Below, piece by piece: positions 40,745 to 64,000 of a stretch of 64,000 nt of DNA. Where the stretch lies: the NCBI RefSeq assembly GCF_964212655.1, contig NZ_OZ156465.1, positions 868,001-932,000 on the forward strand. Direction: 5' to 3'. A program made the position numbers and the translations under genes. The DNA is from Candidatus Thiodiazotropha sp. LNASS1. GTDB lineage: Bacteria; Pseudomonadota; Gammaproteobacteria; Chromatiales; Chromatiaceae. Positions within the stretch are counted from its first letter, which is position 1, and every line of letters starts with the position of its first letter. The notes beneath the pieces were generated by a model. The model saw nothing but the letters and a program-made list of their open reading frames with translations. It searched no databases and was not told the DNA's origin.

Positions 40745-41250
40745 CTGATTTCCAGTAGTTCCACAAAACTTCCATATCCTGATCGAGGCACATAGGACTG
40801 AATATGGCTTCATACAATAACAGCAGATTTACAAGATTAATGAGATTGATGGGAGGATGTATTTCCGCATGGGGTGATTTCATACCTTTAATGCATAAAA
40901 ACCCTACCACGGGTTCTACTGTCTCTATCACCCAGCCTCCAGATCATGCTCAAAGTGCATGAACTACCTGTTAAATGAATAGGATAATCAATCCTATAGT
41001 GGCCAAATCAGCTTTCCATGAAGCGTTTTAAGTGTGTATGTTCTATGTTTCCGACATAAAAATTATTTAGGATTTTACTGCCTCAACTGTTCAGTCATGG
41101 TAGTAACATACCTAATCAACAGGTAGTAGTAACACGCATTAAAGTATGAGGTATTAAGGAATATAGTTGATAATCAGATGATTTTATTCATATTTTACCC
41201 ATCGATTCCCATACTGGGGAAATAAACGCGCCGTCAGGCGACTGGCAAAG
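40745..41250. other. Divergent promoter region between gspD and the subtilase
   Basis: 506 bp, AT-rich, without a supported gene. A candidate sigma-70 promoter for the subtilase is listed separately. I see no clear promoter for gspD and no terminator. Confidence 0.5.
41167..41196 (+). promoter_or_regulatory. Candidate sigma-70 promoter of the subtilase gene
   Basis: TTGATA and TATTTT are separated by 18 bp. The -10 box is only a 4 of 6 match. It lies about 55 bp upstream of the start codon. Confidence 0.35.
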
Positions 41251-45646: not shown

Positions 45647-47281
45647 TTACGGCGCAACCCACTCGGTAATATTCCGTATTCCTCCTCTACCGTCCAGTTT
45701 TGCGATGTAGTAACCCCGGGATACGAACCGCTGATCTGGTGCCATACTTACTCTTGGATATATCGAAGTATAGGGCAGATCGTCAATCATGTGCTCGATT
45801 TTTTCGATAAAGTAGTCTCGATAGAAATAACCACGGATATGTTTCACGGCATCTCCAACCACCTTTAATGCAAAATAGGCATTCGCTTGAATCTCTTTTT
45901 CATTAGGGTCGTAGATTCTCTTAGCCCTAAACCAGCCTGTTGAGCGCATCAGCAGCTTGTTTGTCTTATCAGGCATTTCTGATGTATGAACAAACACAAG
46001 AGAATTCACTAAATCATTCGGTATGCGGCTACTGTCATGGCCGTAATGCAAGGTCGAGAGTATTATCGGTGGGCTATTTTTCTGCTGGCTCACTCCATCA
46101 ATAAGCTGGTCGGACTTTTCCTGGTCGAGCCATAAAACAACGGCACGCTCACCATCCATTTCAGGTAGCAACCGCGAAGAATCGTTCGTATCCCCGACTA
46201 CAACGTCATCTACCACAAGACCGTTTTTTTTCAGTTCGTTACGAAGTGAATCAGCACTCACCACGCTTAATTGAGATGATTTATCGATAAACTGGATAAC
46301 GCTTTTCACGGAAAGGATTTTAGTAATATAGGATGCAACCGCTTCAGCCTCATGGACTGCACCCTTGGTCAGATATATGGTGTAGAAATCAGTTTCATCG
46401 ACTACAGGTAAAGATGTGGTGGGGAAGAGACATGGAATAGTCTCGCGTTCACAAAACTCATGAACAAGTTCCCACCCTGATGGAACAATTCCATTGATCA
46501 AAGCAAATATTGGTTGTTTTTGATAGTAATCAGCCAGCTGGGCGGGCCAACTCTCTTTTTCACCCCTCAACTCCCAAGTATGAATTTGCCATTTTCGATA
46601 TGGCTTGAACAACCACTCCTTGTGCCATGGAGCATTCTTCGCCCTTTTGCTTTCATATCTTGTTTCGATATTCTTTTGTAAGACATACTGCTCCATAACA
46701 TCTTGCAGCGCCTTATTCTCCTCCATGCTGTTTGACGATAATACGATTGTTGCAAAATGTATTGTATCTTCGGTAACACCTGGTGACGCTGTTTGGGACA
46801 GCGTGTCGAGATACACCATCAAGCCATCCAGCGTCTCGTCATCAATATCGTACCTTGGCATAAACGGATCCAACGGTTTACCATTGGCATCTATACCGTC
46901 CCTGATTGCCGCCATCAGAGTTTCCCTCGTATAACCTTCACGGAACACAGGAGGCTCCGGGGGCTTGCTAACCGGTATTTTTAACGGTTTGAACAGCACA
47001 TTCCCGGCAACAGCCGGTACAACCTGCTGGCCTTCCGTTGATCCCATGCCGCTCTTCCTGTGGCAGGTTTCACATATCAACTGATCACCTTCTACCGCAA
47101 TGTCTCCCTGGATTGTGGCTTTCACCAGCTTGCCATTTGGTTGAAGTCCTTCAGTGTAGAACTGTTTTCCTAATGTATAGGCACGCGAGTCGATATCCGC
47201 GTCATTCATGGACAGTGTAGAATAGAGGCTGGCTGTGATAAAGAGACTGAGGTAAGCAAGCCGCTTAATGTTTATTTTCAT
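45647..47281 (-). CDS. Cytochrome c / periplasmic-binding-protein fusion
   Basis: This 544-residue exported protein has a signal peptide, then a single-haem cytochrome c domain (about 35-160; CETCHRKSGMGS, with a Met in PFMPRYD suited as the second ligand), followed by a domain of about 370 residues with the Peripla_BP_6/LivK-like fold (FATIVLSSNSMEENKAL, FALINGIVPSGWELVHEFCERETIPCLFPTTSLP, YTIYLTKG). ABC-type ligand binding is thus joined to a redox centre. No transporter genes are near. It overlaps sco by 1 bp and precedes the histidine kinase, which suggests a redox or ligand sensing role. Confidence 0.75.
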   Translation of the reverse strand: MKINIKRLAYLSLFITASLYSTLSMNDADIDSRAYTLGKQFYTEGLQPNGKLVKATIQGDIAVEGDQLICETCHRKSGMGSTEGQQVVPAVAGNVLFKPLKIPVSKPPEPPVFREGYTRETLMAAIRDGIDANGKPLDPFMPRYDIDDETLDGLMVYLDTLSQTASPGVTEDTIHFATIVLSSNSMEENKALQDVMEQYVLQKNIETRYESKRAKNAPWHKEWLFKPYRKWQIHTWELRGEKESWPAQLADYYQKQPIFALINGIVPSGWELVHEFCERETIPCLFPTTSLPVVDETDFYTIYLTKGAVHEAEAVASYITKILSVKSVIQFIDKSSQLSVVSADSLRNELKKNGLVVDDVVVGDTNDSSRLLPEMDGERAVVLWLDQEKSDQLIDGVSQQKNSPPIILSTLHYGHDSSRIPNDLVNSLVFVHTSEMPDKTNKLLMRSTGWFRAKRIYDPNEKEIQANAYFALKVVGDAVKHIRGYFYRDYFIEKIEHMIDDLPYTSIYPRVSMAPDQRFVSRGYYIAKLDGRGGIRNITEWVAP

Positions 47282-48072
47282 TACTTTCCTGCTGTAATTG
47301 TTTTACGGTATTCCTTTACGATATCTTCTGCGCTTGCAAGCCCGCTTATTCTGACCCAGGATTGTTCGTTTTGTTTACGTATGAGAGTAATAGGTTCGTG
47401 GTTCATTTTTGAGCCACGAAAGATATCGAACGCTTTTTCAACCTTCACGACGTCGTTATACGTACCGGTGTAGAACTGCCACTGGTTACCCGCTTTGAAC
47501 TTCTGGGCATATTTCATCAGTTGCTCTGGCGTATCATAGTCTGGATCGATGGTAATCGAGATCATCGAAATGGAATCACTCTCATCACCCAAAATCTCTT
47601 GAACTTGATGAAAACTTGCGGATAACACAGGACAGATCGTGGTGCAGGTCGTGAAGATGAAATTCAACATCACCGGCTTATCCGTATCCAGCAATTCCGG
47701 GAGACGTCCTTTTTCACCACGATGGGAAATCAGCTGCACATCGGGAATCGTATAGTCAGCTGTATGCAGCTGATAATCATTGCTCATCATCATCCTTCTA
47801 TGGTGGGCATGCTCATCGTGTCCTTGATCACCCGAACTGGCCAGCATTTCAAAGCGTTCACCCAGGGTTTTGCTTTTTCCCGGCCGCGTGATGCAATCCA
47901 GTTTGAAGGGAGGGATAAAGCCCTCTCCCGTTTCGGCTCGTTTTGCAATACTTGGCAGTTCATCAGCATGAGTGGTGAACGAGATCAACGATATCATCGG
48001 GAGCAGTAATACCGCCGGCATGATTCGTTTGTACCACTGTAGTGTTGCTGTATCCCGCACATCGTTAAACAT
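47281..48072 (-). CDS. SCO1/SenC-family copper chaperone
   Basis: This 263-residue protein of thioredoxin-like fold has the copper motif CTTICP and the third ligand His in KMNHEPITLI. An N-terminal signal/anchor (about 17-36) places it in the periplasm. A His/Met-rich stretch (HDEHAHHRRMMM) just after it could bind extra copper. SCO proteins insert copper into the CuA site of cytochrome oxidase, but no cox gene is here, so the multicopper-oxidase-like proteins upstream are possible clients. GGAG precedes the ATG. Confidence 0.88.
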   Translation of the reverse strand: MFNDVRDTATLQWYKRIMPAVLLLPMISLISFTTHADELPSIAKRAETGEGFIPPFKLDCITRPGKSKTLGERFEMLASSGDQGHDEHAHHRRMMMSNDYQLHTADYTIPDVQLISHRGEKGRLPELLDTDKPVMLNFIFTTCTTICPVLSASFHQVQEILGDESDSISMISITIDPDYDTPEQLMKYAQKFKAGNQWQFYTGTYNDVVKVEKAFDIFRGSKMNHEPITLIRKQNEQSWVRISGLASAEDIVKEYRKTITAGK

Positions 48073-51100: not shown

Positions 51101-51292
51101 CGTCCAGGCATCACCTTCAAAGCTTTCACCGGTTAAATCCACCGTGACAGACTGCAGGGCAGCCAGGTCCTGAATGTACTGCGCCTCTGCGTTTGCGTCG
51201 CAGCAGTAGACAGTGACCGCCGCATTGCTCTGCAGCGACACTCCTGCCATAAGCAGGGTTAGAAGGCGAAGGAGAGATTTAATATTATGCAT
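48110..51292 (-). CDS. Secreted seven-fold Calx-beta protein with GlyGly-CTERM-like tail
   Basis: This 1060-residue protein has a signal peptide, then a beta-sandwich domain of about 190 residues with two early Cys (YCCD) and the pattern GVGGWFRSS...WKFLGFID..GFSTL, as in PEP-CTERM-associated surface proteins. Seven tandem Calx-beta domains follow (about 215-1010), each ending in acidic IxDND-type turns that suggest calcium binding. The C-terminus has ten or so Gly, a hydrophobic helix (MGSFLMFLMLCAIFYL) and basic residues, matching the GlyGly-CTERM layout processed by rhombosortase in T2SS-secreting bacteria. A short Cys-containing extension follows the basic residues. Confidence 0.85.
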   Translation of the reverse strand: MHNIKSLLRLLTLLMAGVSLQSNAAVTVYCCDANAEAQYIQDLAALQSVTVDLTGESFEGDAWTSSRNTTVFSVTNQNLTWGASSTGVAGIQTSMGGGDVHEGEYLMFAVDDTSTHLTPDKITLTANGITLYGVGGWFRSSNGAKLAFTTNGDVVDFTGAQATVFDWKFLGFIDDGGFSTLLVETADEVGNEVKTFFSDDFTIAAQAGAFPGQDLQFSSANYSVNENAGSVAVTVSRSGGTTGALSIDYATTADGTATADQDFTAVSGTLDFADGETSKQITINILDDAVFEGDETVGLLLTGTDVGVLNNATLTIVENDSRPAGSVEFSGSSYRVNEDAGTLSVTIQRSGGSEGSGTIDYAISDGTATGGSDYNATSGTLAFIDGQVSGTFDIAITDDALQEGTESIVLNLSNPVSVMLGDRDIAEVSIIDNEASPAMGSIQFSGSTYSVAENGSEIALPVVRISGSMGAVSVVCTTSDSSATAGNDYTATQNTVSFANGEVIQNCRIPIVDDSSYENDETLLVTLSSPTNGAVLGTTSSTTVTIEDNDPVPAAGSLQFDQTSYQLTEGGSTASITVSRSGGSSGSVNVDYATVDGTATAGSDYTSASGTINFAAGVTSVSFQVAILDDAIYEGDETVSLVLSNPTGGAVTGSADTAQLTILDNESAPATGALVFTASEYFADELDGSITVSVERQGGSTGAAQVNYITSDGTAIAGADYAVASGTLAFADGEVSQSFEIFINDDAFFEGTENLSLQLSDPFGVTLGDPASSVITIADDDDPPAAGALDFSTNSYSVDETGTSITVTVTRSGGTSGAISVDYATLDDSATASSDYVFATGTVNFANGESGSKTFEVTIVDDSLLEQDERIRLVLANVQGGAVLGALSESFITISDDEAQTASAILGFSTGSLSANETAGSVNITITRSVTVSGEISVDLSASSSDAVAGTDYNVTTGTVRFANGETEKTITVEILDNTVTDGNRTITFALANAIGTAVIDSNSGTLTLTIIDDESDSGGGGGGGGGSMGSFLMFLMLCAIFYLRVRGFRVCAACSGRNK

Positions 51293-51312: not shown

Positions 51313-51909
51313 TTAGTGAACGATTAAATGCTCGGCCTTGAAGTCGCCGATAACCATGGTCACTTTCTCACCTGACTTCACATGGGCATCCGGATTCCCG
51401 AATACCATATAGTATGTTTTGTTAGGCTTGATGTTCTGGCCCCGATTGGTCGTTCTGAACGCGCCCACCTTGGCCGCCATGGGTATTGGTAGTTTAGCAT
51501 TGGAACGCTCAACCACCAGGTGTGGTTTGACCCTCTGATCGAAAAAATTCTTTGATTTCTCCACATTCAAAACACGAAATCGAAAATCGATCATGTAGCC
51601 TGCGGCAGTCAATCTCAAGCTAATCAACCTGATACCCCACTTGTCGGCGATCTCATTCGCCAGATCAGCGGAAACCATTTCAGGCTGAATGATCTTTTGC
51701 GCCACGGGTGGTTTCCATTTTGCGACAGCTGTTTGTCCGGCTGCCTTATTCGGCAACATTTTTTCGGCACCGTTGGCTATCGCAGAAGTCAGGATAAACA
51801 GAATAATGAGGCACAGTAACAACACGAAAATCAAAATAATCGGGTTGCCCTGGGGTAACAACTCTTCATCCCGTGTTTGAGCGCTGCTTTGTCTCTCGTC
51901 AACTTTCAT
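51313..51909 (-). CDS. Membrane-anchored protein of unknown function in the copper cluster
   Basis: This 198-residue protein has a cytoplasmic N-terminal tail, one membrane helix (about 24-45) and a periplasmic beta-rich domain (about 75-198; GIRLISLRLTAAGYMIDFRFRVL, NKTYYMVFGNP, GEKVTMVIGDF). No known family was recognised. It carries no Cys or His cluster. It lies between the copper-oxidase operon and the Calx-beta protein gene, on the same strand and 20 bp from the latter, so it is probably part of the same system, perhaps as an anchor or accessory subunit. Confidence 0.7.
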   Translation of the reverse strand: MKVDERQSSAQTRDEELLPQGNPIILIFVLLLCLIILFILTSAIANGAEKMLPNKAAGQTAVAKWKPPVAQKIIQPEMVSADLANEIADKWGIRLISLRLTAAGYMIDFRFRVLNVEKSKNFFDQRVKPHLVVERSNAKLPIPMAAKVGAFRTTNRGQNIKPNKTYYMVFGNPDAHVKSGEKVTMVIGDFKAEHLIVH

Positions 51910-51983: not shown

Positions 51984-54900
51984 TTAGGGTTGAACATGAA
52001 TCGGTACATTGTCATAGGTATAGATGATAGTACCACCATTTCCATCGTCCACATGGGCTTCGATGCGCAACCTGTCGTTGGCCTGATCGATATCACCGCG
52101 TGGTCCGGTGCTGCCGACGTTATCGATGTGGATTCTCCAGTTGTCCACATTGTAGACCGTGCCCATATCATTATTCGGGTTGATGTCAGCCGGTGTATTG
52201 ATCGGAATAGGATCGGTGACACCCTGCCTGATGATGTAGGCGAAGATAGAACTGCCCGGCGGAATCACCGTGGGATCGACATTACCGGTGATACGCCAGT
52301 CGTCGTTGTCCGGATTTCCGGCGAGACCGCCATCTTCCCGCAGATTGAACTCCGACTTCTTCACGCCGAGATAGCGTACCAGGCTGACCTGGGCGACATT
52401 ACTGGTGTTGCCACCATCATTGGTGAACTGATACTCCAGTGTACCGATGGTGCCCATTGCCATATCCTCGATTACCAGAGTGACTTCACCCGATGCCGCA
52501 ATCTCAGGAGAGAGATTATCAGGATCATTCACTTCGGTAGCAGTCGGATTGGTTCCGGTTCCCAGATCGTTATCCAGTGCGCTGGCCGTGACATAAGTGG
52601 TACTGACCAATTCACCGTTTTCTGCGGTGAGTTCTGTCACCGAGGGCGCATTGAGGATAAAGGTATCGTTGACTGCCGTGGCCGTGGTTTGCGGATTGAC
52701 CGTGATGTTGACGCTAACCGCGGCACTGTCCACCAGACCGTCATTGGCGACATAGCTGAAGGTATCCGAACCGTCCACGGTACCCGGATCACAAACACCC
52801 GTCAGTGTGCTGTTCCAGCCAATCTGAGGCTCGTAAGTAAAGGAGCCGTCCGAGTTCAGCGTCAGGGTACCGCAGCTAGGACCACTACCGGCCACCAGAC
52901 TCGCTGTAAGGACCTGGCCATCCACATCCGTGTCGTTAACCAACACACCGGGAGCGGCTTCATTGAGGATGCTGCTTTCGGTCATGCTGTAACTGTCTGC
53001 AACAGCCACGGGCGCCTCATTGCCAACCGTGATGGTCACCGTGGCCGGTAGACTCTCGTTGGGGGTAGGCACACTGTCATCGCTGGCGATGTAAGTGAAG
53101 GTATCCGCACCGGAGAATCCTGCAGGTGGCGTATAAGTGAAAGAGCCGTCTGCATTCAACACCACGGTGCCGCCTTCGGTAGTTGTACCGGGCGGTGTGG
53201 GACCGTCAAAGGCTGCGGTCATCGGCTGCCCCTGCGGTTCGGTATCGTTCGACAGGACACCCTGATCGACCGCAACGACCAACTCAGTATCCACAATGGC
53301 CATATAGTTGTCGTCGATGACCTCAGGCGCCTCGGTACTCACAGGATCAACAGTGATGGTAACGGTTCCTGTAATCTTGTCGTCATACGCTGTAACACCC
53401 GTCTGGTTGCCGACTGTGTTTATATCGTCGAGGACTACATAGTCAAAAGTAACCTCGACTGAGTCAGGACCCGGTACACCGTCTGTAGGTGGTGTAAAGG
53501 TACATTCACCGTTCGATGCGCATACAAGCGTTCCCTGTGTCGCAGGATCTAAATCGGTTACAGGATCAAATGGAGGCGAATACGAGAAGTTCAGTACATC
53601 ACCCGGCTCAGCATTGACTGCGCCATCCAAGGCGTTGAAAAGCAACTCAGTCGCGGCATCCGTCACTAAAGTATGGTCAGCCGCTGTGGGTGCCTCATTG
53701 CGCAGATAATCCAGGGTGACAGTTGCCAAACCGCTCGTCAGACTCCCGTCAGTCACATCGTAATCAAAATTGGTGGAAGCAATGGTTGCTGGTGTTGCAT
53801 GGAAGGTCTCGGTACCGCCAGCAGGTCCTGTGTAGCCGTACTCTACCGAACAAGATGTATCGCCAGCATTACAGAACGCATCGATGGTTATCGCAACGTC
53901 GCCGTATTGCTGGTTAGGCGTTAGGGTAGACGCAAGGGTCAGCGGATCATTATTGATGTCACTGTCGTTGGCAATGACATCCAAGAGAAATGCAACAGGT
54001 GTCGCTTCAGTATCACTGCTCAGGAGTTCAGGGTATTCAACGGTAAACTGATCAGCCACGGCCACCGGCGCCTGGTTGGTGCCGGGTGCAACACCCAATT
54101 TCCTGAACATGCCGCCGACGGTATCCTCAGCGCCCGTGGTTTCGTTGGCGGTGGGGTTGGTCATATAACCGTTGCCGTCATAGATGGAATAGATCCCCTG
54201 CACAGCCGGAGTGACAATCACATCCTTCGTCTTCAGCGGCGGCAAGCCGATCGAGTACTGCTCAATGGGTGCGGCCGTTTCAGCAGCCGCGGCGCCGCTC
54301 ACGCCGGCCTGCCACATATACTGCATGCCGTCCTCACCATGGATTGCGCCGTAGAGCCCCTGGAAGACCGGGACATGATTTTCGGTTGCCGCACTGGCGA
54401 AACGAATCAGATTGCTCTGATTGACATCGATACCGGTAATAGTATTGGTACCCACGGCGTTAATCGTCCCGCTCGGATCATAGGGCTCGCCATTGATCAG
54501 GAACCAGGTGGGATGACGCTCGATAGCCGTTTCCAATGGCGGATATGCAGCGTATGCCGGATCGTACGGTGCCACCACTGATTTATTGAAGTCAGGATCG
54601 ATATCGCTGTAGAAGAGCGTGGTATCGCTGGTGTACGCGACGCCGGGATAGACCTCGCCAGAAACGGAGTCACGTGTGACCATGCCATAGAGCCCCATGT
54701 AGAGCTGCTTTTGGGGATGTGTGCCGGTGTGGTAAATGAAACTGCCCGTATTCGTAATAGGATTGTTCCGGTTACTGTTCCAGATATATGCCCGTCTACC
54801 GCCGTTGCGATTCGCTTCACGACCATAAGAGCGCATCTTCAAGGTTGTATCGCCGGCTGGGCGTCCCCCGGTAATGGCATTCCCACCGAACGGACCATCC

Positions 54901-55304
54901 CAAGTGGGACCGTTATCGGCCGCTGAGTAAGGCAACTCCTGCCCTGGGATCACGATGGATGACGGCTCAGGCAACGTATTAGTCAAAAAAATCCGCAGTG
55001 CCGTATCGGTCGGCGGAATATCCAACCTCGGGCCCGGTGCCACAGGATCAGGCAGATTGTCGACACAGGTACGTCGCGCAGCCGCTGGCGTTGTTTCATA
55101 ACAATCACCTCTGCCGGAACTATCGTTATCCGGATCGATCACATACCCCCACATGGGAACAACACTTCCATCCGGCATAGTCTTGGAGTACGCCTTTGTG
55201 GCCAGGGTGTAGTCGATAGCACCTGCTTGTCCGGCTGCCATGGCCAATGCACAGGCGGCGACGATGGGTTTGATTCTAAGCTTCATGATTTTTGACCTTT
55301 TCAT
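51984..55304 (-). CDS. Multicopper-oxidase-like protein with cadherin/VCBS-type repeats, copper ligands degenerate
   Basis: This 1106-residue secreted protein has a signal peptide (cleavage near GQAGA) and an N-terminal cupredoxin region (about 30-400) of multicopper-oxidase type: FIYHTGTHPQKQLYMGLYG resembles the His/Met end of a type 1 site but lacks the Cys, and ENHVPVFQGLYG stands where HPMHYHG is found in the neighbour. It is therefore probably not an enzyme on its own. Four or more Ig/VCBS-like domains follow (about 410-980; APVAVADSY, GSFTYTPPAGFSGADTFTYIASDD) and a final beta domain. GGGAGG precedes the ATG. It is the last gene of the operon. Confidence 0.75.
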   Translation of the reverse strand: MKRSKIMKLRIKPIVAACALAMAAGQAGAIDYTLATKAYSKTMPDGSVVPMWGYVIDPDNDSSGRGDCYETTPAAARRTCVDNLPDPVAPGPRLDIPPTDTALRIFLTNTLPEPSSIVIPGQELPYSAADNGPTWDGPFGGNAITGGRPAGDTTLKMRSYGREANRNGGRRAYIWNSNRNNPITNTGSFIYHTGTHPQKQLYMGLYGMVTRDSVSGEVYPGVAYTSDTTLFYSDIDPDFNKSVVAPYDPAYAAYPPLETAIERHPTWFLINGEPYDPSGTINAVGTNTITGIDVNQSNLIRFASAATENHVPVFQGLYGAIHGEDGMQYMWQAGVSGAAAAETAAPIEQYSIGLPPLKTKDVIVTPAVQGIYSIYDGNGYMTNPTANETTGAEDTVGGMFRKLGVAPGTNQAPVAVADQFTVEYPELLSSDTEATPVAFLLDVIANDSDINNDPLTLASTLTPNQQYGDVAITIDAFCNAGDTSCSVEYGYTGPAGGTETFHATPATIASTNFDYDVTDGSLTSGLATVTLDYLRNEAPTAADHTLVTDAATELLFNALDGAVNAEPGDVLNFSYSPPFDPVTDLDPATQGTLVCASNGECTFTPPTDGVPGPDSVEVTFDYVVLDDINTVGNQTGVTAYDDKITGTVTITVDPVSTEAPEVIDDNYMAIVDTELVVAVDQGVLSNDTEPQGQPMTAAFDGPTPPGTTTEGGTVVLNADGSFTYTPPAGFSGADTFTYIASDDSVPTPNESLPATVTITVGNEAPVAVADSYSMTESSILNEAAPGVLVNDTDVDGQVLTASLVAGSGPSCGTLTLNSDGSFTYEPQIGWNSTLTGVCDPGTVDGSDTFSYVANDGLVDSAAVSVNITVNPQTTATAVNDTFILNAPSVTELTAENGELVSTTYVTASALDNDLGTGTNPTATEVNDPDNLSPEIAASGEVTLVIEDMAMGTIGTLEYQFTNDGGNTSNVAQVSLVRYLGVKKSEFNLREDGGLAGNPDNDDWRITGNVDPTVIPPGSSIFAYIIRQGVTDPIPINTPADINPNNDMGTVYNVDNWRIHIDNVGSTGPRGDIDQANDRLRIEAHVDDGNGGTIIYTYDNVPIHVQP

Positions 55305-55322: not shown

Positions 55323-56726
55323 TTATTCGATGGGTGTGCCGGGAGGCACAATAACCACGGAGCCCAAGCTGCCGCCGGGGAAGATATCGAATGTGGTCAG
55401 CTCCTTTTCCGCATGTGAGTGCCACACCAGAAAGTAGCCGCCAAAGGGATTCAGACCACCTTCACCGGGAGGCAGATCACCTGTATCGCCGAGGAATGGG
55501 CTACCACTCCACCAGCCACCGAGTGAAAGATCGCCCACACCTGGCAGCGTGACCGGCAACGGTTTGCCATGATCGGCACAATATTCGTGATCATAGGTGG
55601 AGCCGGACTCAACATCGCCAAATCCGTCATTGTCCGTATCGATACAGACATGGCCGGTATCATGTCCATAGATATCCCAATTCAGTCCCTTGCCGGTCCA
55701 GGTCCAGAGTGCATCAACAGTCTGTTTCGGCGCTGAGTTGATAGTATTGTCGGAACGTCCCAGGTCGGAAACGATGCCGTCTGAACTCAACATCTTCCCA
55801 TCGCGACCGATAAAGGTGAGGTTCTCGCCATGGTAGTGCATGGGGTGGGAATCGTGTCCCGCATTGATATTACGCACCAATACCATGTCACCCGGTTGAG
55901 CTATTGCGAGTGCCTCATAGGGTTGATGTGGAAAGAGCGGGTTGTAATCCCCCTGGAACAGATCGGGAAAGACCCGACCGTTGATAAACCAGATCTTGGC
56001 ATGCCGATCGGAGTGGGTGAAATGACTTCTGTGCCCACGCTCCATCTGCAGGTGAATTTCAGGATCAACCTCTGTCATAAGATAGAGATTCTCCTGATCG
56101 TACTGTGTACCGGTATCTACACCGTAAGCGGTGCGATTGGGACCTGCACCGAAATCAGCCGGACGCACAATCATCACCCCCAACAGCCCCATCTCTACAT
56201 GCAGTCCGGGATTGCTGCCATCCAGGCTGTGATAAATGTAGGTGCCTGGGGATCCTGCGGTAAAGGTGTATGTCACCGCTTCATTGATATCAGCGGATGA
56301 GGTCACGAGTCCTGCTGTACAGGTGCTTGGACCACCGCCGGGAAAGGGTGCACAGGACCCACTCGCGTTATGGCCTGTAACGACGATACCGACCGGTTCG
56401 GGAACCCCATAATTGGCGATATTGATGGTCACGCTATCCCCTTCCGTGACAATCAGGGTGGGTGCCGGGTATTGCGGTAGTGCATAACCATCACCCGCTG
56501 CATGGGTGGCGTTCGCACCGCCATCCATATCACCAAAACCCCACATATATAAACTGGTGCCTTCAGGCAGGTTCATATTGAAGGGATAGGCATACAGGTT
56601 GAATGTGGGACCTGTTATACCGCGAATGTCGTGAGCCGCATGGGTTAACGGCGCACTGAAGACACCTGCAAGGCCCAGCATAAGGAAGCTGATGAACCGC
56701 CCAGGTTTTTTGAATATGCTCTTCAT
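55323..56726 (-). CDS. Short multicopper-oxidase-like protein with HPMHYHG and HSH motifs
   Basis: This 467-residue secreted protein has two cupredoxin regions. The first (about 80-190) has YIYHSLDG...HVEMG but no Cys. The second carries HDSHPMHYHGE (His291, 294, 297, 299) and VWHSHAE (His436, 438), which correspond to two of the four His-X-His pairs of a trinuclear copper centre. No type 1 Cys-His-Met set is visible. I chose the ATG at 56726 because AGGAG lies at the right distance; the longer frame starts directly on that site. It is 27 bp from the previous gene's stop and 18 bp from the next gene. Confidence 0.75.
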   Translation of the reverse strand: MKSIFKKPGRFISFLMLGLAGVFSAPLTHAAHDIRGITGPTFNLYAYPFNMNLPEGTSLYMWGFGDMDGGANATHAAGDGYALPQYPAPTLIVTEGDSVTINIANYGVPEPVGIVVTGHNASGSCAPFPGGGPSTCTAGLVTSSADINEAVTYTFTAGSPGTYIYHSLDGSNPGLHVEMGLLGVMIVRPADFGAGPNRTAYGVDTGTQYDQENLYLMTEVDPEIHLQMERGHRSHFTHSDRHAKIWFINGRVFPDLFQGDYNPLFPHQPYEALAIAQPGDMVLVRNINAGHDSHPMHYHGENLTFIGRDGKMLSSDGIVSDLGRSDNTINSAPKQTVDALWTWTGKGLNWDIYGHDTGHVCIDTDNDGFGDVESGSTYDHEYCADHGKPLPVTLPGVGDLSLGGWWSGSPFLGDTGDLPPGEGGLNPFGGYFLVWHSHAEKELTTFDIFPGGSLGSVVIVPPGTPIE

Positions 56727-56753
56727 TAGTCTCATCTCCTAGTTCGGCCAGCC

Positions 56754-58109
56754 TCAGTTGACAACAATCTCGGTTATCATGCCGCCATCCAGCTGTGTCG
56801 CATTACTCATCTGGTGTACTTCGGTGGCATGGAGGAAATAGGTGCCAGGTGCCACATCGGCCGTATCGATGATGACATCGGTGGTCTCACCGCCACCGAA
56901 GTTGAGTGATGCCGTTTCACGGTAGAGATTTTTGCCATCACTTCCGCGCATCTGACGTGCACCGGTACCGACAATCTTCATCTTCAGACCCATGGCAGTG
57001 ATGGTCCAGAAGCGGTCAAGGCCCACATTCGACAGACGCAGCAAGAGACGCTCGCCCTGATTGACCTCAATGACGGAATCCATCGTCTGAGTGGGATCGC
57101 CATTGTTCAGGATTTCACCGGGATTGCCAGTCACTTTACCTGCAGGATGACCTGCCACCGGCGTTACGTTATCGGTAGGTGCCGGTAAATCGCCTGGGCT
57201 TACCGTATCCGGATAGCCTCGACCGTTGATCTGAGGATAATTACCTTCAAGATCCGCAAACGGCAGAGGCTGAACGAAAAGACTGGCGTCATGGAAGTTG
57301 CCATCGAAGCTTGAGAACTGCAGCGCCACTTCCACATCCCAAGCCGTGGAGCCGTCGTTGTCGTTGTAGACATAACCTGTCGGGCCGGTGCTGCCTGGAT
57401 CTTTTCGGGTTCCCGGCGCACAACCGCCGTTCGGTACAGGTTCCGGATCATATTCCGCGGTACCCGGGTTATCGACCAAATCGAAACAACCGATCTCGTC
57501 CTGAATCGGATGCACGTAGAGATTGGCCAACATACCCATCTCCATGTGCTCAGTGGCTTCCACGTGGCAGTGATAGATATAAGTACCGGGCTCGACGATG
57601 TTGTAGTAGTAGGTCAGTGTCGATCCCATATTGATGGAGATCGAAACCTCAGGTACACCGTCGAAAGCCGCGGAGGCGTTGGGGAAGCCATGGAAATGAA
57701 CCGTATGCGGATCGAACAGATCGGGTCGGATCACAGTACCCACGTTGGTCAGATTGAGAAAGAACTCCTGCCCTTGATCCAGTTCGATGGTGGGTCCAGG
57801 CCACTCGGCCGCCAAGATACCATTGCCGATCACCGTGTCTGGTGTGTTGCCATTCCCTGTTTTGTCACCAAAACCGAAGGTATACAAGGGATTGCCGTCT
57901 GACATGATTGCAAAGCTGTCACCGGCGATCAGATGCATACATTTGGCATTCTCATTGTAATCGGGATGGCCAGGTCCAACATCGACAGTTGCGTCCCCGT
58001 CTAAATCGCCTGGACACTGAACATTGACCACGGCACTGGCGGTACCAACGAACCCCAACAACGTGAGGGCAATTGCCCCTGCAAGTATGTTTTTACGATA
58101 AGTTTTCAT
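56754..58109 (-). CDS. Short multicopper-oxidase-like protein with HxxHFHG and HCH motifs
   Basis: This 451-residue secreted protein has a signal peptide (cleavage near ASAVV), a domain with HTVHFHG (His135, 138, 140) and YHCHVEATEHMEMGM (His180, Cys181, His182, His188, Met193), and a second cupredoxin domain (about 340-451) that keeps the fold (GERLLLRLSNVG) but has no HPxHxHG. It therefore has a type 1 Cys-His-Met set and two of the four His-X-His pairs of a trinuclear centre. The spacing HxH-x5-H is that of small two-domain laccases. The missing two pairs are found in the next gene. CGAGGAG precedes the ATG. Confidence 0.8.
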   Translation of the reverse strand: MKTYRKNILAGAIALTLLGFVGTASAVVNVQCPGDLDGDATVDVGPGHPDYNENAKCMHLIAGDSFAIMSDGNPLYTFGFGDKTGNGNTPDTVIGNGILAAEWPGPTIELDQGQEFFLNLTNVGTVIRPDLFDPHTVHFHGFPNASAAFDGVPEVSISINMGSTLTYYYNIVEPGTYIYHCHVEATEHMEMGMLANLYVHPIQDEIGCFDLVDNPGTAEYDPEPVPNGGCAPGTRKDPGSTGPTGYVYNDNDGSTAWDVEVALQFSSFDGNFHDASLFVQPLPFADLEGNYPQINGRGYPDTVSPGDLPAPTDNVTPVAGHPAGKVTGNPGEILNNGDPTQTMDSVIEVNQGERLLLRLSNVGLDRFWTITAMGLKMKIVGTGARQMRGSDGKNLYRETASLNFGGGETTDVIIDTADVAPGTYFLHATEVHQMSNATQLDGGMITEIVVN

Positions 58110-58248: not shown

Positions 58249-61200
58249 CTAAGGCGCCAGTTCATCAGCGCCGATATCAGAACCCGTGGCGGGTCTTGGA
58301 TCATTGTCGAAATCGACCTGTGTACGGCTGCCACCGGTGGGACCACCCTGGTTGTCAGCCTGATTGCCTGCCGCCAGGTGATAGTCATAAAGCGCACCGA
58401 GGGAATCAACCAGCGTGACAGGACCGAAACTGACCTGCAGGAAGTTACCGCCTTCATCGAAGGCCCCGGCCGCCTGTATCACCTTGAACTCTGGGAACAG
58501 CAGACTGTCGGTCGCTTCGTTGTAGACCGGATTGACAAATCCCACATCACCGGTGATCAGCTCATTTGTACCGCTGGCTGTGTCGTACTCGGTACCATCC
58601 TGCAGCAGGCAGTAACGAGGCCGCAACAGATCCGTTGTGCTCTCGGTGACACCGGTCACTACACCCATATCATTGGTATAAGCCTCATAGTCCGTCAGTG
58701 CACAACCGGCACAATCCGGCAGCAGACCGCCTGAGAGCTGTGTCGGATCACCGTTGTTGGACCAGTAGAACGAACGGTTGTGGTAAACAATGGTGTCACG
58801 CAACGTTGGGTTGCTGTAAGTTGCGTTCTGCGTCATTGCGCCAGGCGCCGGATTGTCATCCTCATCATAGGAGTCGATCGCGAGCGCCATGGCCTGCGCC
58901 ATATCATTACTATGGGTCCGCGATACGATACCCGCCGGCAACGGTTGCGACTCATTCGGATTGGCCGGATCGGCAAACGCCTGGGAACCGGTCGAGGTTG
59001 AATCGTTTCTCGCCACCGTGTTGTTGCGAATCACAACCTTCGGGGAGTCGAGTATCGATAAACCACCACCTGCTACTCCGGCCACATTGTTATTGACCAT
59101 GTTGTTGAACAGGTTGACGCCGTACCAGCGGCCTCTGATCCATTCATCGCTCTCTTCGCCATCTGCAGCAAAGCGACTTTGCGGGATATCCTGTCCATTG
59201 ACGCTGGTGATGCTGATACCGCCGCCATCGCCGGCACCCGCCAGGTTACCGCGGATGATGTTGGCGTCGACGGTCACGTTACCGGTACCGGGTGACAACA
59301 TCAGCCCTGTCTCTGCCTCAGGCACCAGCGCGGGCTGTCCGGCGATATAGATACCGCCACCATCCGGCGAAGTTCCCGGTGTCTGCTGGAAGGACTCATT
59401 GAAGATAACCATATTATCCTCAATGATGCCGCCCCGGTTGAGACCCAGGTGAGCGATACCGGCGCCGCTTCCTTGAGCGAAGTTACCGCATACCCAGTTA
59501 TTTCTCACCCGGTAGGCGTCAGCGCCTGTATTCAGCGAGATACCGGCACCTGCACCGTTCAGTACACCGTTCTTCTGTACCAGGTTGTGATGGATATTGA
59601 CGCGGTCGTTTCGGCTGTCGGTATAGACCAGAGTGCCTACCGCATAGTTGTCATTCTCCTCAATGAAATCCGGATCGTCTTCAGTTTCGATCTCATGGGT
59701 CAACTGAGGATGACCGACACGGATACCGCCACCGTAGAAACCGGAGTTGGCGGTAATCTTATTGTTGGAGATATTCAACCACTGGTTATAGCCGTTGGCG
59801 ACAATGCCACCGCCGGTGCTGGCACCGATTATGGTGAAACCATCGATACGGGCACCACGATTCCTGGGATGGCCGAAACGGTTGCCACCGCTGTTGGTGC
59901 CGGCCACGAAGATACCTGCACCCTCTTCTGTCGGGAAGAGTTGCGCACCCAGTCCGGGGAAACCGAATGGCGCCAGGGCCTGACCCGGCAGGAGTGAGAT
60001 CGAGCCATTGGACTCCAGCGTGGTGGCCAGATTACGCCAGTTGGCAACCTTTTCGGTGGGCACCTGTCTGGCATTCAGGGTAACCGCACCGGCACCCCAA
60101 CCTTGCAGCTTGACAGGTTTCCACATGATCACCATCTCGTCATAGTCACCCGGCGCAACGAGAATCAGGTCACCAGCGGCAGCGGAAGGTCCGGCTGGAT
60201 TGTTGACCGGATCGCCAATCGCCTCCTGAATGGTGGCGAAATCACCCGGTACGCGCCAGACCGCTGACGTTGTGGCTTCCTGGTTTGCAGCATTGTAATT
60301 GGCCCTGGGGGCACGTTCGCCCAGACCGGTCACATCAACACCCACAGTCAGAGTGACTCCTACCGGTGAACTGACATCACCATTGGAGACCATGACCTGG
60401 TACTCACCTGGACCGACTGCGGGGATAGTGCCCTCAATAAAATCCTCGTTTCGAGCGCTGTAGGAAGAGAGCTCGATCGGCACTGTTGGATCATCCAGAT
60501 CGATGAGGAATGCCCGCGATTCCATACCTGGAACACCTGGGTTGAAGCTGTAGTCACGCGTTATCAGCTTCTCCGCAGGAATCACGCCATCCCAATAGGG
60601 ATTGGGCACAAGCACTTCACCCATTGAATTGATGCGAATGGTATCGCCGGCCAGACCGAAAGGACCGGGCAGCCCGCCCGTCCGGGTGACTGACGATATC
60701 ATAGGTGTATTGTCGGTCTGCTCACAATCCAGTGGAAAGGTCTCCCTGTCCGCATGTGCGGCAACCGGTACCACAGGCGTATCCAGATAGGTGATAACGC
60801 CGGGCATGTACTGGAAGGTGTAGCAGAACTGGCTGTACTGGGTCTTGAAGTTCGGATCGACGATCTTGGCGGGCGCACCCGTGTTGTCGTCAAGTCCGTC
60901 ATTATCGACATCGACCAAGTATTCGGGATTATCGATCGGTCCCGCATCATTCATACAGGAAACCAGCATGTTGGGTGACATACCCGATGGAATCCCCAGA
61001 TTCGCCGTGGAGGTCGATGGCACCATCAGGTTGTAGCGACCGTACTGATCCGCATAAATACGATTGACTTCGTTGCCGTTCCAGTCATAGAAGGAGATCG
61101 GTATGTTACGCGGCGCGAACTTTTCGCCGAAGGCCGGGGAGTTCGGATTGAACTCGTTGGCCAGGTCGTTGAGGACCACCCCTGACACATTGCCGGCAAG

Positions 61201-64000
61201 CGGCACATGGGTCATGAGGAAGAACTCAGCGGCAGCGTTCTGACCGGATGAGAGCGGCACCAGTTTGCGATCGCAACTGGGACGTGTCTCATTGGCGAAC
61301 GGCGCAAACACACCCTCGTCGCCCAGCAGCGCGGCATCCACAAGATTGCTGCCGTCGCCCGGATCGGTACCGCTGCCATCCCTGGTCACCATTGTCAGGT
61401 ACTGAGGCACCGTATGGGGGTCGCCCACACAGGCCACGGGCAGCGCTTGCAGTGAGGGTGTATATTCGTCACCGAAATCGACGTTCTTATGCTCCTCTTT
61501 GAGACTTTCATAACCCGGGGGCGTAGCCATCTCGACAATATAGTCACCGGGGAGAATCCATTGCTCGGGTAGCTCAAGCGCCTTTCCGGTTGCTGCGGCA
61601 ACCGTACTGACGGCTGCATTTCGATCCGCGAAGAAGTTGTTCAGGATAGTGACGTTGCCACTCTGGCCAGCCAGGCTGCCCAGGTAGTCCATGTCATACT
61701 CTTCGAAAGCGAATCCACCGTCGAAGACGCCAGGCCTGACCTGATTGAAGTTGCGCAGACCGTCGAAGCAGCGCTCATCAGTAATCGGCGGCTCAACAGG
61801 GATGCCTGCAGGGAAAGCGGGGCTAGGTGGGATATTGTTCAGGCCCTGACAGCCTTCGGGCAGGCTATCGTCCCAGCTGTCGGTCCAGGTCACTTGCAGG
61901 GCGTCGCCCAGATCAAATGCACCATTGCCGTTTCTGTCGATATCCTCCGGACCGGGTGCTGCACCCTCGGCAAAACCGAACGGGTGGTTGTCCACATCGG
62001 CATACTGAATACCGGGCACACCATTAATATTTTCGACCACACCATCGTCGGGATCCAATGTGCCATCGTTATTCCAGTCGATGTCACAGTTCACCTGGCC
62101 AGCGAGGGCGGGACAGTCGATGTCACCGTCGGCATAGAGTGCCAGCTGAACCCGGGGTACACCCGGCTCCCACTCCTCGGCGGCGGCGAATTGCGGTTCG
62201 TTCTCCGCGCGGGTGGTGGCATAGAAGACCATACCGGAAATACCGCCGTTCTCACCGACAAACTCAGGCGGATGGAATGTTCCATCGTTGTAGGGTGGTG
62301 TAATACCGATGTAATCCACCTTACCGAACTGCATCACACTGGTCTGGCCGAGAAAACCCTGGAAGCCCTGGGTCAGTACCGCACCGGTTTCCGTGCGTGA
62401 CAGGTTGTCAGTGGTGTTCGGATTGATCAGCGCATCACCTGGGGTACATCCAAAGTTGGGATCTTCAGCATTTGCGGCAATCGCCGGTGTACATAACTGA
62501 GGTTGGGGATTCAATTCACCAAAACCGGGAAAGTCACCGTTGGCCGTATCCACTGGACCACCCGCGTCGACCACAAAGGTGGCGCCGGTCGCCTTCTTGT
62601 TGGCAAAGCTGACCTCAGCCACCAGCCAATGGAAGAAGGGAAAGATCTCGTCGAATGGCGCAAGACCCTCATGGTCGGTGGGGAAGTTCTGATAGACGCT
62701 ACCGTCGCGCCAGCGCAGGGTCACATCCTGGCTCTCGGGGCCGATACCCCGCTCACCGTTGCCAAGCCCTGGTTCGCCCTGGTCCCAGAAACCATCCAAG
62801 TCTTCGTCCAGGAAAACGCCGGTGTTCAGACGGGTAAACCAATTGAAAACGGCCACTTCACCGAAGGCGCAGCTATTGCCGCCATTACAAGTACCACCTG
62901 TGGAATCCACGCTGAACGGATTTGCGGCGAAGACCACATCCAGGTTTGCATCCCAGATCGCCAGCTGATAGCTGCCTGGAGGCAGATCAAAAGAGAAACC
63001 GCTATCCCCGTCACAGGGGGCTGCTTCGACACCCTGACCCAGGGCACCGGCCGCATCCACTTGGTTGATACCAACCCAGCAACCCGGGAACGGGCGACCG
63101 GAAAAGAACTCGAATGTCGGTTGGCGTGTGACGCGCGACATATGCATGTCAGTGACAGTGCCACTCACGGTAGCTATCTGCTCACCCGGTTGCGGACCTG
63201 GCGCACCTGGCATACCGCCATCAGCTGTAGCTTTTACAAAACCGACGAACACATGGGGCCCCGGTAATCCGAACTCGACAAAGACCGGCGGTTCATTGGC
63301 CTTGACCCAGGCATCGATGACCTTGCTGCCTTCGATGGTGCTGGTCTGCTGCCAACCGATACTATCGTCGGGATTGGTGGGTGGGATGATCACAACACCG
63401 TATTTACCCGGCGCGATATTTTTTACCGTCAAAGTGCCGTCGGGATTGGGGTGCATGGTACCGTCACCCATTTCGAGCACGACTGGATTACCCTCAGCGT
63501 CGAAACAGAAGTGATCGATTAAAAGTACTGGCTCACCGCCAATAATCACGATATTGCCGGCGCCATCACGCAGGTACGCAGGCGATCCATCGGCAAGGCA
63601 GTGCTGATCATAGACGGTACCAAGCGGATTCCCGAAGGCATCCTGAATCACCTGGCCGCCTGCGATGCCGTAACGACCGCCCGGCTCTTCCAGAAACAGC
63701 GAAAACTGGGTCCAGTCAACGCTGCCATCGTTGGCCTCTTGAGGGAGGTCAGGCACACCGTTGATGGGATGGTTATCCTCAAACAGATAGATCGAGATCT
63801 GAGCTGTGGGGATCGGATGGGGCTGCACGGTCACAGTCAGTTCATTTGCACCAGGGACAACCTCTATCGGGGCGCCACTGATGCTGTGACCGCTGTAAGG
63901 CAGCACTGAAACATAGTAACGCGTGTCGGGCAGACCAGTGATTGTGGCTGAATTGGTATCCTCATTGCCACTCAGGTTCTCAGCCTGACCTGCCACATCT
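58249..64000 (-). CDS. Giant surface protein with SdrD_B-like and beta-helix domains (5' partial)
   Basis: The frame is open to the right window edge; at least 1915 residues are visible. They begin with SdrD_B/Cna_B-like beta domains (ARISIYLFED-type, IAPGKYGVVIIPPT, LPPGSYQLAIWDANLD), continue with EF-hand/dockerin-like calcium loops (DIDWNNDGTLDPDDG, DRNGNGAFDLGD), an IPT/TIG-like segment near 1250, and end with a right-handed parallel beta-helix of about 500 residues (GGGIRVGHPQ, NWVCGNFAQGSGAGIAH, IIRGNLAGAGDGGGISI). No C-terminal anchor is present. It is probably exported, perhaps as a scaffold for the copper proteins encoded 139 bp downstream. Confidence 0.8.
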   Translation of the reverse strand, partial: DVAGQAENLSGNEDTNSATITGLPDTRYYVSVLPYSGHSISGAPIEVVPGANELTVTVQPHPIPTAQISIYLFEDNHPINGVPDLPQEANDGSVDWTQFSLFLEEPGGRYGIAGGQVIQDAFGNPLGTVYDQHCLADGSPAYLRDGAGNIVIIGGEPVLLIDHFCFDAEGNPVVLEMGDGTMHPNPDGTLTVKNIAPGKYGVVIIPPTNPDDSIGWQQTSTIEGSKVIDAWVKANEPPVFVEFGLPGPHVFVGFVKATADGGMPGAPGPQPGEQIATVSGTVTDMHMSRVTRQPTFEFFSGRPFPGCWVGINQVDAAGALGQGVEAAPCDGDSGFSFDLPPGSYQLAIWDANLDVVFAANPFSVDSTGGTCNGGNSCAFGEVAVFNWFTRLNTGVFLDEDLDGFWDQGEPGLGNGERGIGPESQDVTLRWRDGSVYQNFPTDHEGLAPFDEIFPFFHWLVAEVSFANKKATGATFVVDAGGPVDTANGDFPGFGELNPQPQLCTPAIAANAEDPNFGCTPGDALINPNTTDNLSRTETGAVLTQGFQGFLGQTSVMQFGKVDYIGITPPYNDGTFHPPEFVGENGGISGMVFYATTRAENEPQFAAAEEWEPGVPRVQLALYADGDIDCPALAGQVNCDIDWNNDGTLDPDDGVVENINGVPGIQYADVDNHPFGFAEGAAPGPEDIDRNGNGAFDLGDALQVTWTDSWDDSLPEGCQGLNNIPPSPAFPAGIPVEPPITDERCFDGLRNFNQVRPGVFDGGFAFEEYDMDYLGSLAGQSGNVTILNNFFADRNAAVSTVAAATGKALELPEQWILPGDYIVEMATPPGYESLKEEHKNVDFGDEYTPSLQALPVACVGDPHTVPQYLTMVTRDGSGTDPGDGSNLVDAALLGDEGVFAPFANETRPSCDRKLVPLSSGQNAAAEFFLMTHVPLAGNVSGVVLNDLANEFNPNSPAFGEKFAPRNIPISFYDWNGNEVNRIYADQYGRYNLMVPSTSTANLGIPSGMSPNMLVSCMNDAGPIDNPEYLVDVDNDGLDDNTGAPAKIVDPNFKTQYSQFCYTFQYMPGVITYLDTPVVPVAAHADRETFPLDCEQTDNTPMISSVTRTGGLPGPFGLAGDTIRINSMGEVLVPNPYWDGVIPAEKLITRDYSFNPGVPGMESRAFLIDLDDPTVPIELSSYSARNEDFIEGTIPAVGPGEYQVMVSNGDVSSPVGVTLTVGVDVTGLGERAPRANYNAANQEATTSAVWRVPGDFATIQEAIGDPVNNPAGPSAAAGDLILVAPGDYDEMVIMWKPVKLQGWGAGAVTLNARQVPTEKVANWRNLATTLESNGSISLLPGQALAPFGFPGLGAQLFPTEEGAGIFVAGTNSGGNRFGHPRNRGARIDGFTIIGASTGGGIVANGYNQWLNISNNKITANSGFYGGGIRVGHPQLTHEIETEDDPDFIEENDNYAVGTLVYTDSRNDRVNIHHNLVQKNGVLNGAGAGISLNTGADAYRVRNNWVCGNFAQGSGAGIAHLGLNRGGIIEDNMVIFNESFQQTPGTSPDGGGIYIAGQPALVPEAETGLMLSPGTGNVTVDANIIRGNLAGAGDGGGISITSVNGQDIPQSRFAADGEESDEWIRGRWYGVNLFNNMVNNNVAGVAGGGLSILDSPKVVIRNNTVARNDSTSTGSQAFADPANPNESQPLPAGIVSRTHSNDMAQAMALAIDSYDEDDNPAPGAMTQNATYSNPTLRDTIVYHNRSFYWSNNGDPTQLSGGLLPDCAGCALTDYEAYTNDMGVVTGVTESTTDLLRPRYCLLQDGTEYDTASGTNELITGDVGFVNPVYNEATDSLLFPEFKVIQAAGAFDEGGNFLQVSFGPVTLVDSLGALYDYHLAAGNQADNQGGPTGGSRTQVDFDNDPRPATGSDIGADELAP

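Follow-up and report, generated by a model that had tools for sequence, protein, structure and literature searches.

From residue conservation and structure prediction, the copper site of a putative multicopper oxidase seems to be split between the products of two adjacent genes, and three proteins seem to belong to one enzyme. The genes lie in the window, i.e., the whole stretch of 64,000 nucleotides from Candidatus Thiodiazotropha sp. LNASS1 that was analyzed. It is quite probable, in our judgment, that the proteins A and B, together with the N-terminal portion of C, arose as diverged copies of a two-domain oxidase subunit and assemble into a heterotrimer with a single trinuclear center at the A/B interface. 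The features concerned are the following:

56754..58109, minus strand: gene A, 451 aa, with two cupredoxin domains: type 1 site and two His-X-His pairs in the first, no ligands in the second
57690..57707, minus strand: H135 (type 1) and H138/H140 (HFH pair) of A, from the sequence; conserved in 80/80
57531..57572, minus strand: H180-C181-H182, H188 and M193 of A (pair and type 1 ligands), from the sequence; conserved in 80/80
55323..56735, minus strand: gene B, 470 aa; two His-X-His pairs in the second domain, no ligands in the first
55830..55847, minus strand: H297, H300 and H302 of B (HPMHYH), from the sequence; 79/79
55413..55421, minus strand: H439-S-H441 of B (HSH), from the sequence; 76/79 (one contig end and two frame breaks account for the rest)
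51984..55304, minus strand: gene C, 1106 aa; its N-terminal part is cupredoxin-like with two domains but has no copper ligand set, and cadherin-like repeats follow
51313..51909, minus strand: 198-aa protein encoded immediately after C; hydrophobic stretch at the N terminus
58249..64000, minus strand: giant protein upstream of A, starting about 260 bases past the window end; fused to A or C in some relatives
47281..48072, minus strand: SCO1/SenC family protein (Pfam SCO1-SenC, 2.8e-20)
45647..47281, minus strand: cytochrome c-type protein; weak Pfam Cytochrome_CBB3 match (E 0.0011), below the cut-off

Two cupredoxin domains per chain were recognized in A and B by Pfam and by fold, and in C by the alignment and the joint model only. 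The Pfam families above the cut-off were Cu-oxidase_3, Cu-oxidase and Cu-oxidase_2 in A, and Cu-oxidase_3 and Cu-oxidase_2 in B, while Cadherin_4 and Big_9 were reported for C and an oxidase domain was not. By sequence, the top PDB relatives of A were 3g5w and 2zwn, which we take to be type C two-domain multicopper oxidases. The motif HTVHFH of A contains H135, H138 and H140, and the motif HCHVEATEHMEM contains H180, C181, H182 and H188, with M193 downstream. The roles of these residues, including the type 1 role of H135 and H188, were presumed from the motif as it is known to us. With C181, H135, H188 and M193, each found in 80/80 loci, the type 1 set of one Cys, two His and one Met is complete in A, and only A has this site in its first domain, B and C being without a conserved Cys at that place. 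A and B together hold four His-X-His pairs, i.e., eight histidines, which neither protein holds alone. At the matching ligand positions of the second domain of A, the first domain of B and C, the 80-locus alignment contains mixed residues.

The first-pass annotation had listed the HFH (138/140) and HCH (180/182) pairs, Cys181 and Met193 of A correctly and had omitted H135 and H188. Its length for A (451 aa) stands; B has 470 residues counted from the first ATG and the 467 given earlier from an ATG three codons downstream, so that the former 297/299 and 436/438 become 300/302 and 439/441. Within the window, A and B lie in one frame with a gap of 18 bases, and this frame offset is not conserved across loci. 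A single gene broken by a stop codon was rejected as an explanation, since a signal-like stretch opens each protein and the frame offset varies among loci.

The conservation of the two half-sets was analyzed in the family loci and in a wider set, the best 80 of 278 relatives from a scan across phyla; the remaining 198 were more distant and lie outside the counts, and 23 of the 80 are repeats of family loci, with 57 new. In the family, all eight ligand positions of A and five positions of B were conserved in 34/34 loci, counts that leave out L088-L092, which fell below the score lines of the family sets, and one extra B row, a 146-aa fragment. In the wider set, the A ligands were present in 80/80 loci at all eight positions. 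B was found in 79 of the 80 loci, with H297/H300/H302 in 79/79 and H439/H441 in 76/79. The three misses were L135 and L138, in which WHSH is visible beyond a frame break, and L160, truncated by the end of its contig. Hence, the B ligands are present in every copy whose frame and contig extend to them, and the two copper half-sets in adjacent genes noticed at first reading were confirmed as a pattern beyond chance.

These counts also bear on a different explanation, in which A, B and C would bind copper or transfer electrons as separate proteins, having lost sites independently, with no trinuclear center formed. In its favor, A and B are each incomplete alone. Nevertheless, the losses in A and B complement each other exactly, and the half that each retains is invariant across several phyla; independent decay would not preserve eight histidines across two constantly neighboring genes. 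We consider this explanation highly improbable, and its earlier form, two unrelated binding proteins with independent site loss, found no support.

Gene order supported the hetero-oligomer as well. The order A-B-C was found in 34/34 family loci having strong B matches and in 76/80 loci of the wider set, always on one strand; the other four run off their contigs, and on that of L153 only a C fragment fits. Co-occurrence of the two genes, which had been proposed for survey, was borne out: in 369 genomes of the class, A was detected at at least 13 places in 10 genomes, and B was adjacent at 13/13 among the matches listed. Strong B matches (E <1e-100, a line set post hoc) occurred, among the matches listed, only in those 10 genomes. 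When 398 genomes of the phylum were searched with the B profile, one strong locus was obtained besides that of the window (G455, with A and C beside it), together with many weaker matches (best 7.6e-24) that were not counted as relatives. The B profile was rerun on 31 genomes and found nothing further in them. In the tree, A, B and C each formed one group with full bootstrap support, and the same phyla appeared in each group.

Identities were correlated over 74 loci (L138 and L153 left out), with values of 0.92 for A-B, 0.77 for A-C and 0.77 for B-C. The higher A-B value would agree with an arrangement in which A and B alone form the shared center, as a heterodimer or heterohexamer, and C is a docking adhesin, although kinship and the faster change of C could suffice to produce it. 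Furthermore, a compact two-gene relative, with genes B' and A', has the same ligand split, and no third such gene was found beside the B'-A' pair within the 11–16 kb examined; from these complementary halves, the third subunit may be dispensable. On the other hand, the N-terminal part of C shares the two-domain family of A and B and occurs in 76/80 loci, the other four running off contigs, and the predicted confidence was far higher for three proteins (pTM 0.90) than for A and B (0.58), two values that differ in species and alignment depth. An assembly of A and B alone seems unlikely to us. The sharing of ligands between A and B, as first proposed, is supported; C, whose gene had been missed, is most likely a third subunit. 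The lost sites of C could also mean that it is an adhesin only.

Intact single-chain relatives, which had been named as evidence against a divided site if they occurred alone, do exist (L090 and L091). In the tree, they branch next to A and outside the A, B and C groups, and because of this position they are read as an older layout and no refutation of the putative split site.

To structure, A and B each contributed a two-domain oxidase/nitrite reductase fold (Z 24–28). The A-B-C concatenation of L129 (1169 aa, 96 rows) was modeled with AlphaFold2, with a mean pLDDT of 88.5 and a pTM of 0.90. This joint model represents the proteins of a relative, with stop codons set as glycine and signal peptides kept in the linkers. 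Its alignment drew the 96 rows from 45 of 69 listed loci, and the row listing omitted L115, L125, L138, L151, L153, L158, L162 and four incomplete loci. On this model 6vow, presumably a three-domain oxidase, was superposed over 375/409 residues (2.5 A, Z 27.3; model residues 23–829). Since 6vow aligns on A and the end of B, the two halves probably meet. This is as expected if the second domain of B packs against the first domain of A, like laccase domain 3 against domain 1, the predicted interface being read only from the first and last aligned residue of the superposition.

The best fold match of the joint model was 2zwn (Z 31.4, 279 residues, 2.1 A), with 3g5w close to it (Z 31.3, 283 residues, 2.5 A); both matches span the model range 25–956 and are mostly A by length. 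A linear comparison with ceruloplasmin gave an rmsd of about 34 A, which speaks against a shared ring order. Such a misfit is as expected if the ring has the order A-C-B, which the predicted interface between the first domain of A and the second of B demands. It could alternatively stem from a wrong arrangement in the model. The A-B pair of the window, modeled without C, reached a pTM of 0.58, and its confidence was low in parts of the ligand regions of both proteins; it had fewer rows than the A-B-C model and came from another species, which makes it no clean test of the role of C. As its A/B arrangement was not confident, this model alone was set aside for the interface.

The folds also raise the case of a single type 2 copper at the A-B interface, like that of copper nitrite reductase, so that the complex would be a reductase. 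Both by fold and by sequence, nitrite reductases rank among the nearest matches, and sulfate reducers have the cluster, but the eight conserved histidines follow the four-pair pattern of oxidases, and the joint model comes closest in fold to the two-domain oxidases 2zwn and 3g5w. Nitrite reductases have three histidines at the type 2 site. We regard a reductase as extremely improbable, and membership in the copper nitrite reductases was rejected on the eight conserved histidines instead of three. The sulfate reducers with the cluster include Desulfobulbus; an oxygen-reducing enzyme fits less well with such hosts.

The neighboring genes were counted in the same 80 loci. A relative of the giant protein was found in 78/80, with a profile made from those same loci (25 of their 63 long members) and with the giant gene of the window itself left unscored. 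It is joined in frame to A in L153, L158 and L162, and lies behind C in L194 and L195. The 198-aa protein had a relative in 63/80 loci, and in 54/57 of those with at least 3 kb of sequence after C. SCO1/SenC relatives were present in 22/80 and 19/57, respectively, and the cytochrome c-type protein in 20/80. By its family, the SCO1/SenC protein is a probable copper-delivery protein. The cytochrome is probably of the MofC-like kind, a label taken by neighborhood, not by sequence, from the available part of PMC5566968. The SCO1 and cytochrome-type neighbors and the giant-protein fusions to A and C were counted in favor of the heterotrimer.

Like A, the type C homotrimers (2zwn, 3g5w) have the type 1 site in the first domain, and their center is expected where a first domain meets the second domain of the next chain. 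Their four pairs lie in one gene product, giving three centers, whereas here the pairs are split between A and B, with one predicted center, and C has none. The earlier statement that one chain supplies the whole center in all known oxidases was wrong, since in two-domain oxidases each trinuclear center is already shared by residues of two protomers, according to the portion of PMC13151041 consulted. What is unusual here, judged from the sequences, is that the putative sharing protomers are encoded by different genes and have complementary losses. Six-domain oxidases (ceruloplasmin, MnxG) and OmpB/MofA likewise form a pseudo-threefold ring with one surviving trinuclear center, but they are single chains, in contrast to the three separate genes found here; for this reason, membership in the ceruloplasmin/MnxG group was rejected. 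Bacterial six-domain oxidases have the type 1 site in domain 2 and the center between domains 2 and 3 (PMC3600357, in excerpt); A, by contrast, carries its type 1 site in a first-type domain, and a linear order agrees poorly with the joint model. A MofC-like cytochrome is found in OmpB/MofA clusters too, some of which also contain SCO1 (PMC5566968, in excerpt). The cluster itself is already in print by description: the passages seen of PMC5566968 and PMC12016527 report three tandem cupredoxin/MCO genes in Sideroxydans lithotrophicus ES-1 (Slit_1816-1818), accompanied by small proteins, SCO1 and a cytochrome, and raised on late magnetite relative to Fe(II)-citrate; the largest of the three lacks oxidase motifs and has adhesin-like parts. 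The content of the Slit_1812-1818 type of cluster equals that of the window, with three cupredoxin genes, SCO1 and a cytochrome, compared by description only (PMC12016527). Two of the Slit genes are said to have canonical oxidase motifs, and those passages describe no divided copper center (PMC5566968, PMC12016527). Among the literature matches listed, which covered subscription papers in part, no earlier account of a split or hetero-oligomeric trinuclear center was found, nor was a split center among those listed for Thiodiazotropha oxidases; the split site is new as far as this search shows.

All oxidase sites of the Mnx complex lie on a single chain, MnxG, whereas here they would be divided between A and B. 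Like the proposed heterotrimer, MnxEFG is a multi-subunit multicopper oxidase, in its case a manganese oxidase (PMC5622069, in excerpt).

The hetero-oligomeric oxidase envisaged by the first-pass annotation is thus supported by invariant complementary ligands, constant gene order, co-occurrence and a confident joint model, all of it computation, and the best reading is a heterotrimer derived from homotrimeric two-domain oxidases. In homotrimeric relatives, each contact of a first domain with the second domain of the adjacent chain would hold a trinuclear center, three in all. In the heterotrimer, the eight histidines would be retained solely at the interface of A domain 1 and B domain 2, the ligands having gone at those of B domain 1/C domain 2 and C domain 1/A domain 2. 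Electrons would enter at the only type 1 copper site, that of A, and pass through the HCH motif to the A/B center, where oxygen would be reduced. C would close the ring, and its adhesin-like tail and the giant neighbor protein may keep the enzyme outside the cell. The analysis itself shows the sequences, their conservation, the gene order and the predicted packing, and we infer copper binding, oxidase activity, copper delivery by SCO1 and the extracellular site; metal or mineral oxidation is our leading, still tentative, guess for the substrate. For a broader proposal the chances appear about even: the complex would be a multi-gene counterpart of ceruloplasmin from a type C ancestor, with a split center, acting as the extracellular metal-oxidation head of a secreted giant-protein assembly and widespread, and the splitting would have been repeated, as the B'-A' pairs may indicate.

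A single gene is the usual explanation for copper centers active on metals and oxygen. If the present center is built from two gene products, annotating A or B alone as a multicopper oxidase misleads, and either gene expressed singly would give an inactive protein. It would also provide a testable mechanism for the Sideroxydans cluster that rises on magnetite. An intermediate step between homotrimeric two-domain and single-chain six-domain oxidases has been proposed for the evolution of ceruloplasmin and clotting factors, and the heterotrimer, if true, would be a living one.

The copper ligands were found divided between two of three adjacent genes, A (451 aa), B (470 aa) and C (1106 aa, cadherin-like in its C-terminal part), which are arranged as follows:

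58249 to some 260 bases beyond the end of the window, minus strand: giant protein, first in order, before A
56754-58109, minus strand: A
55323-56735, minus strand: B
51984-55304, minus strand: C
after C in minus-strand order: a 198-aa protein, a Calx-beta repeat protein, an SCO1/SenC protein, a cytochrome c-type protein and a histidine kinase

The genome carrying this locus was a single contig of 4,746,093 bases. Among the best 80 of 278 relatives of A, the closest named ones belonged to a gammaproteobacterial symbiont of Ctena orbiculata (100%) and to Candidatus Thiodiazotropha endolucinida (99%); hence, the host is presumably a sulphur-oxidising clam symbiont.

Both A and B were assigned to Pfam multicopper oxidase domains, and the nearest solved structures by sequence were two-domain oxidases, ascorbate oxidase and copper nitrite reductases. 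HTVHFH and HCHVEATEHMEM were located in the first domain of A, and HPMHYH and HSH in the second domain of B; in each protein the other domain had lost the pairs. The division of ligands between adjacent genes, proposed in the first-pass annotation, was thus borne out. Its premise that one chain supplies all the ligands did not hold, since the accessible text of PMC13151041 describes two-domain oxidases in which two protomers, both copies of one gene product, together form each trinuclear centre.

Conservation was analyzed in a cross-phylum scan with one genome per species, using the best 80 of 278 relatives of A (23 of these loci repeated those of the family set, so 57 were new). The ligands of A were kept at all eight positions in 80/80 loci. 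B was present in 79 loci and kept its first three ligands in all of them and the last two in 76; the three misses corresponded to a contig end (L160) and to frame breaks (L135 and L138), beyond which the motif was visible. An early second-domain histidine outside the copper sets was also invariant, both in A (H273, window 57291-57293; 80/80) and in B (H228, window 56052-56054; 79/79).

The N-terminal stretch of C aligned with B and A, as with GSFIYHTGTHPQKQLYMGLYGM in C and GTYIYHSLDGSNPGLHVEMGLLGV in B, and the copper ligand set was absent from this part. Across the 80 loci, the C profile matched B proteins at about 60-125 bits, and with the B profile, C proteins scored about 30-125 bits or gave no match. 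In a tree of 55 rows, A, B and C formed one group each in all 200 bootstrap trees. From the sequences and the models, A, B and C would form a heterotrimer with a single working interface, for which the argument is the pattern of ligand loss. The ring contacts would be A1/B2 (domain 1 of A with domain 2 of B), B1/C2 and C1/A2; if A1/B2 alone were retained, A would keep its domain 1 ligands, B those of domain 2 and C none, and the observed pattern agrees.

Structures were predicted on concatenated chains read through the stop codons; in some loci, the genes share one frame. The A-B chain of the window (903 aa, 33 rows) gave a pTM of 0.58 and a pLDDT of 76.7, with parts of both ligand regions poor. 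Each half matched two-domain oxidases or nitrite reductases (Z 24-28), and the mutual arrangement of A and B was unclear. For L129, a Desulfobulbus MAG whose C is short, the A-B-C chain (1169 aa, 96 rows) reached a pTM of 0.90 and a pLDDT of 88.5, a gain not attributable to C alone, as the two runs differed in species, depth and C. In this model, the regions listed with a pLDDT under 50 were the linkers (two), residues 788-791 and the four C-terminal residues. On it, 2zwn and 3g5w aligned with a Z of 31, and 6vow, a three-domain oxidase, aligned over 375/409 residues (2.5 A), spanning the model from residue 23 (in A) to residue 829 (end of the second domain of B). This fit would be expected if domain 2 of B faced domain 1 of A as domain 3 of laccase faces domain 1, the contact where the trinuclear centre lies. 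The 9cck alignment, which ended in the first domain of B (residue 558), gave a fit of 14.5 A; since the extra domain of 9cck may have another position, it is not a clean control. A linear alignment of ceruloplasmin spanned the whole L129 model with an rmsd of about 34 A and a TM of 0.2. This misfit argues against domain pairs 1-2-3 corresponding to A-B-C and would fit A-C-B, the ring order required by an A1/B2 contact; a wrong arrangement would give the same result.

When B was used as query with an E cut-off of 0.001, matches were obtained in 39/210 genomes of the order. Strong matches occurred in 34 of these, and at all 34 loci (the window included, one from the same species) the gene order was A-B-C. 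The three genes were also consecutive, on one strand and in an order without exception in 76/80 scan loci; four loci ran off the contig (L114, L135, L137 and L160), L135 holding only A and a frame-broken B. The gaps were below 100 bases, except in L158 (A-B, 491) and L138 (B-C, 172, behind the frame break), and the contig of L153 held only a fragment of C. Among the matches listed for the class (369 genomes), there were no fewer than 13 places with A, in 10 genomes, each place with an adjoining B match, and no B match better than 1e-100 was found outside those 10. Despite 32-33% identity, all three genes were present and their ligands unchanged in replicons of Paraburkholderia and Cupriavidus metallidurans. 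The co-occurrence of the two genes, which the first-pass annotation had proposed to survey, was therefore confirmed in these sets. In L083:4680-11303, A was followed first by a B fragment (146 aa) and, 0.7 kb further on, by a complete B.

A relative of the giant protein was present in 78/80 loci, and the two without it (L142 and L163) begin near a contig end. Since it was fused in one frame into A (L153, L158 and L162) or behind C (L194 and L195, Paraburkholderia and Cupriavidus), A, C and the giant protein are probably parts of one assembly. The 198-aa protein had a relative in 54/57 loci with at least 3 kb of sequence after C; SCO1 relatives were found in 22/80 loci and cytochrome c-type relatives in 20/80, counts limited by the extent of sequence per locus. 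The nearby SCO1 gene suggests that copper may be loaded in the periplasm. Signal peptides were assigned by eye. The Calx-beta repeat protein (window 48110-51292), which has a glycine-rich hydrophobic tail at its C-terminus, had a relative in 20/80 loci. Additionally, a type II secretion operon lay near the cluster (window 30706-40813), with GspD, E, F, K and M and weaker GspC and pseudopilin-like matches. It could export the folded complex; relatives of GspD, E or F were near the cluster in 5/80 other loci.

Single-chain relatives with all four pairs were observed in the same bacterial family (L090:5458-6942, 494 aa; L091:1918-3393, 491 aa), and their hosts (G020 and G068) also carried an A-B-C cluster. 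In the tree they branched beside A, outside the A, B and C groups, and their layout is probably homotrimeric. A third single-chain copy, L089, stops early (457 aa). Furthermore, six compact two-gene loci were read (L088, 4862-6875; L217, L218, L219, L220 and L223), with B' followed by A'. B' (305-337 aa) had a second domain with two pairs and A' (336-341 aa) a first domain with HxH, HCH and the type 1 site, giving complementary halves in 6/6 pairs. Profile searches of the 14-16 kb (five loci) or 11 kb (L088) around them revealed no further gene with a match to A, B or C. Because the L088 rows, both very long branches, grouped neither with each other nor with A or B, a second origin of the split is possible.

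According to the accessible text of PMC12016527, the Slit_1812-1818 cluster of Sideroxydans lithotrophicus ES-1 showed higher levels in late magnetite cultures than in those with Fe(II)-citrate. Two of its proteins are described there as having canonical oxidase motifs, which a third, larger one lacks; compared by these descriptions only, the gene content of the cluster is like that of the window. No account of a divided copper centre was found in the accessible Slit descriptions or among the papers listed by literature searches. According to the accessible text of PMC3600357, domain 2 of bacterial six-domain oxidases carries the type 1 site, and the centre lies between domains 2 and 3. In contrast, the type 1 site of A is in a first-type domain, which suggests an independent path from homotrimer to one-centre ring.

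Two genomes of the same genus (L086 and L087) showed an A-B-C set only in a strongly diverged form (B about 33%, A about 40%), in which C was short (421 aa). The cluster was also present in sulfate reducers (L116, Desulfobacteraceae; L129, Desulfobulbus; L135, Desulfosarcina; L157, Desulfobulbaceae), in which an oxygen-reducing enzyme would not be expected. Each of the A, B and C groups of the tree held rows from Pseudomonadota, Thermodesulfobacteriota, Nitrospirota, Acidobacteriota and Myxococcota, which indicates that the three copies predate the spread across these phyla, through descent or transfer.
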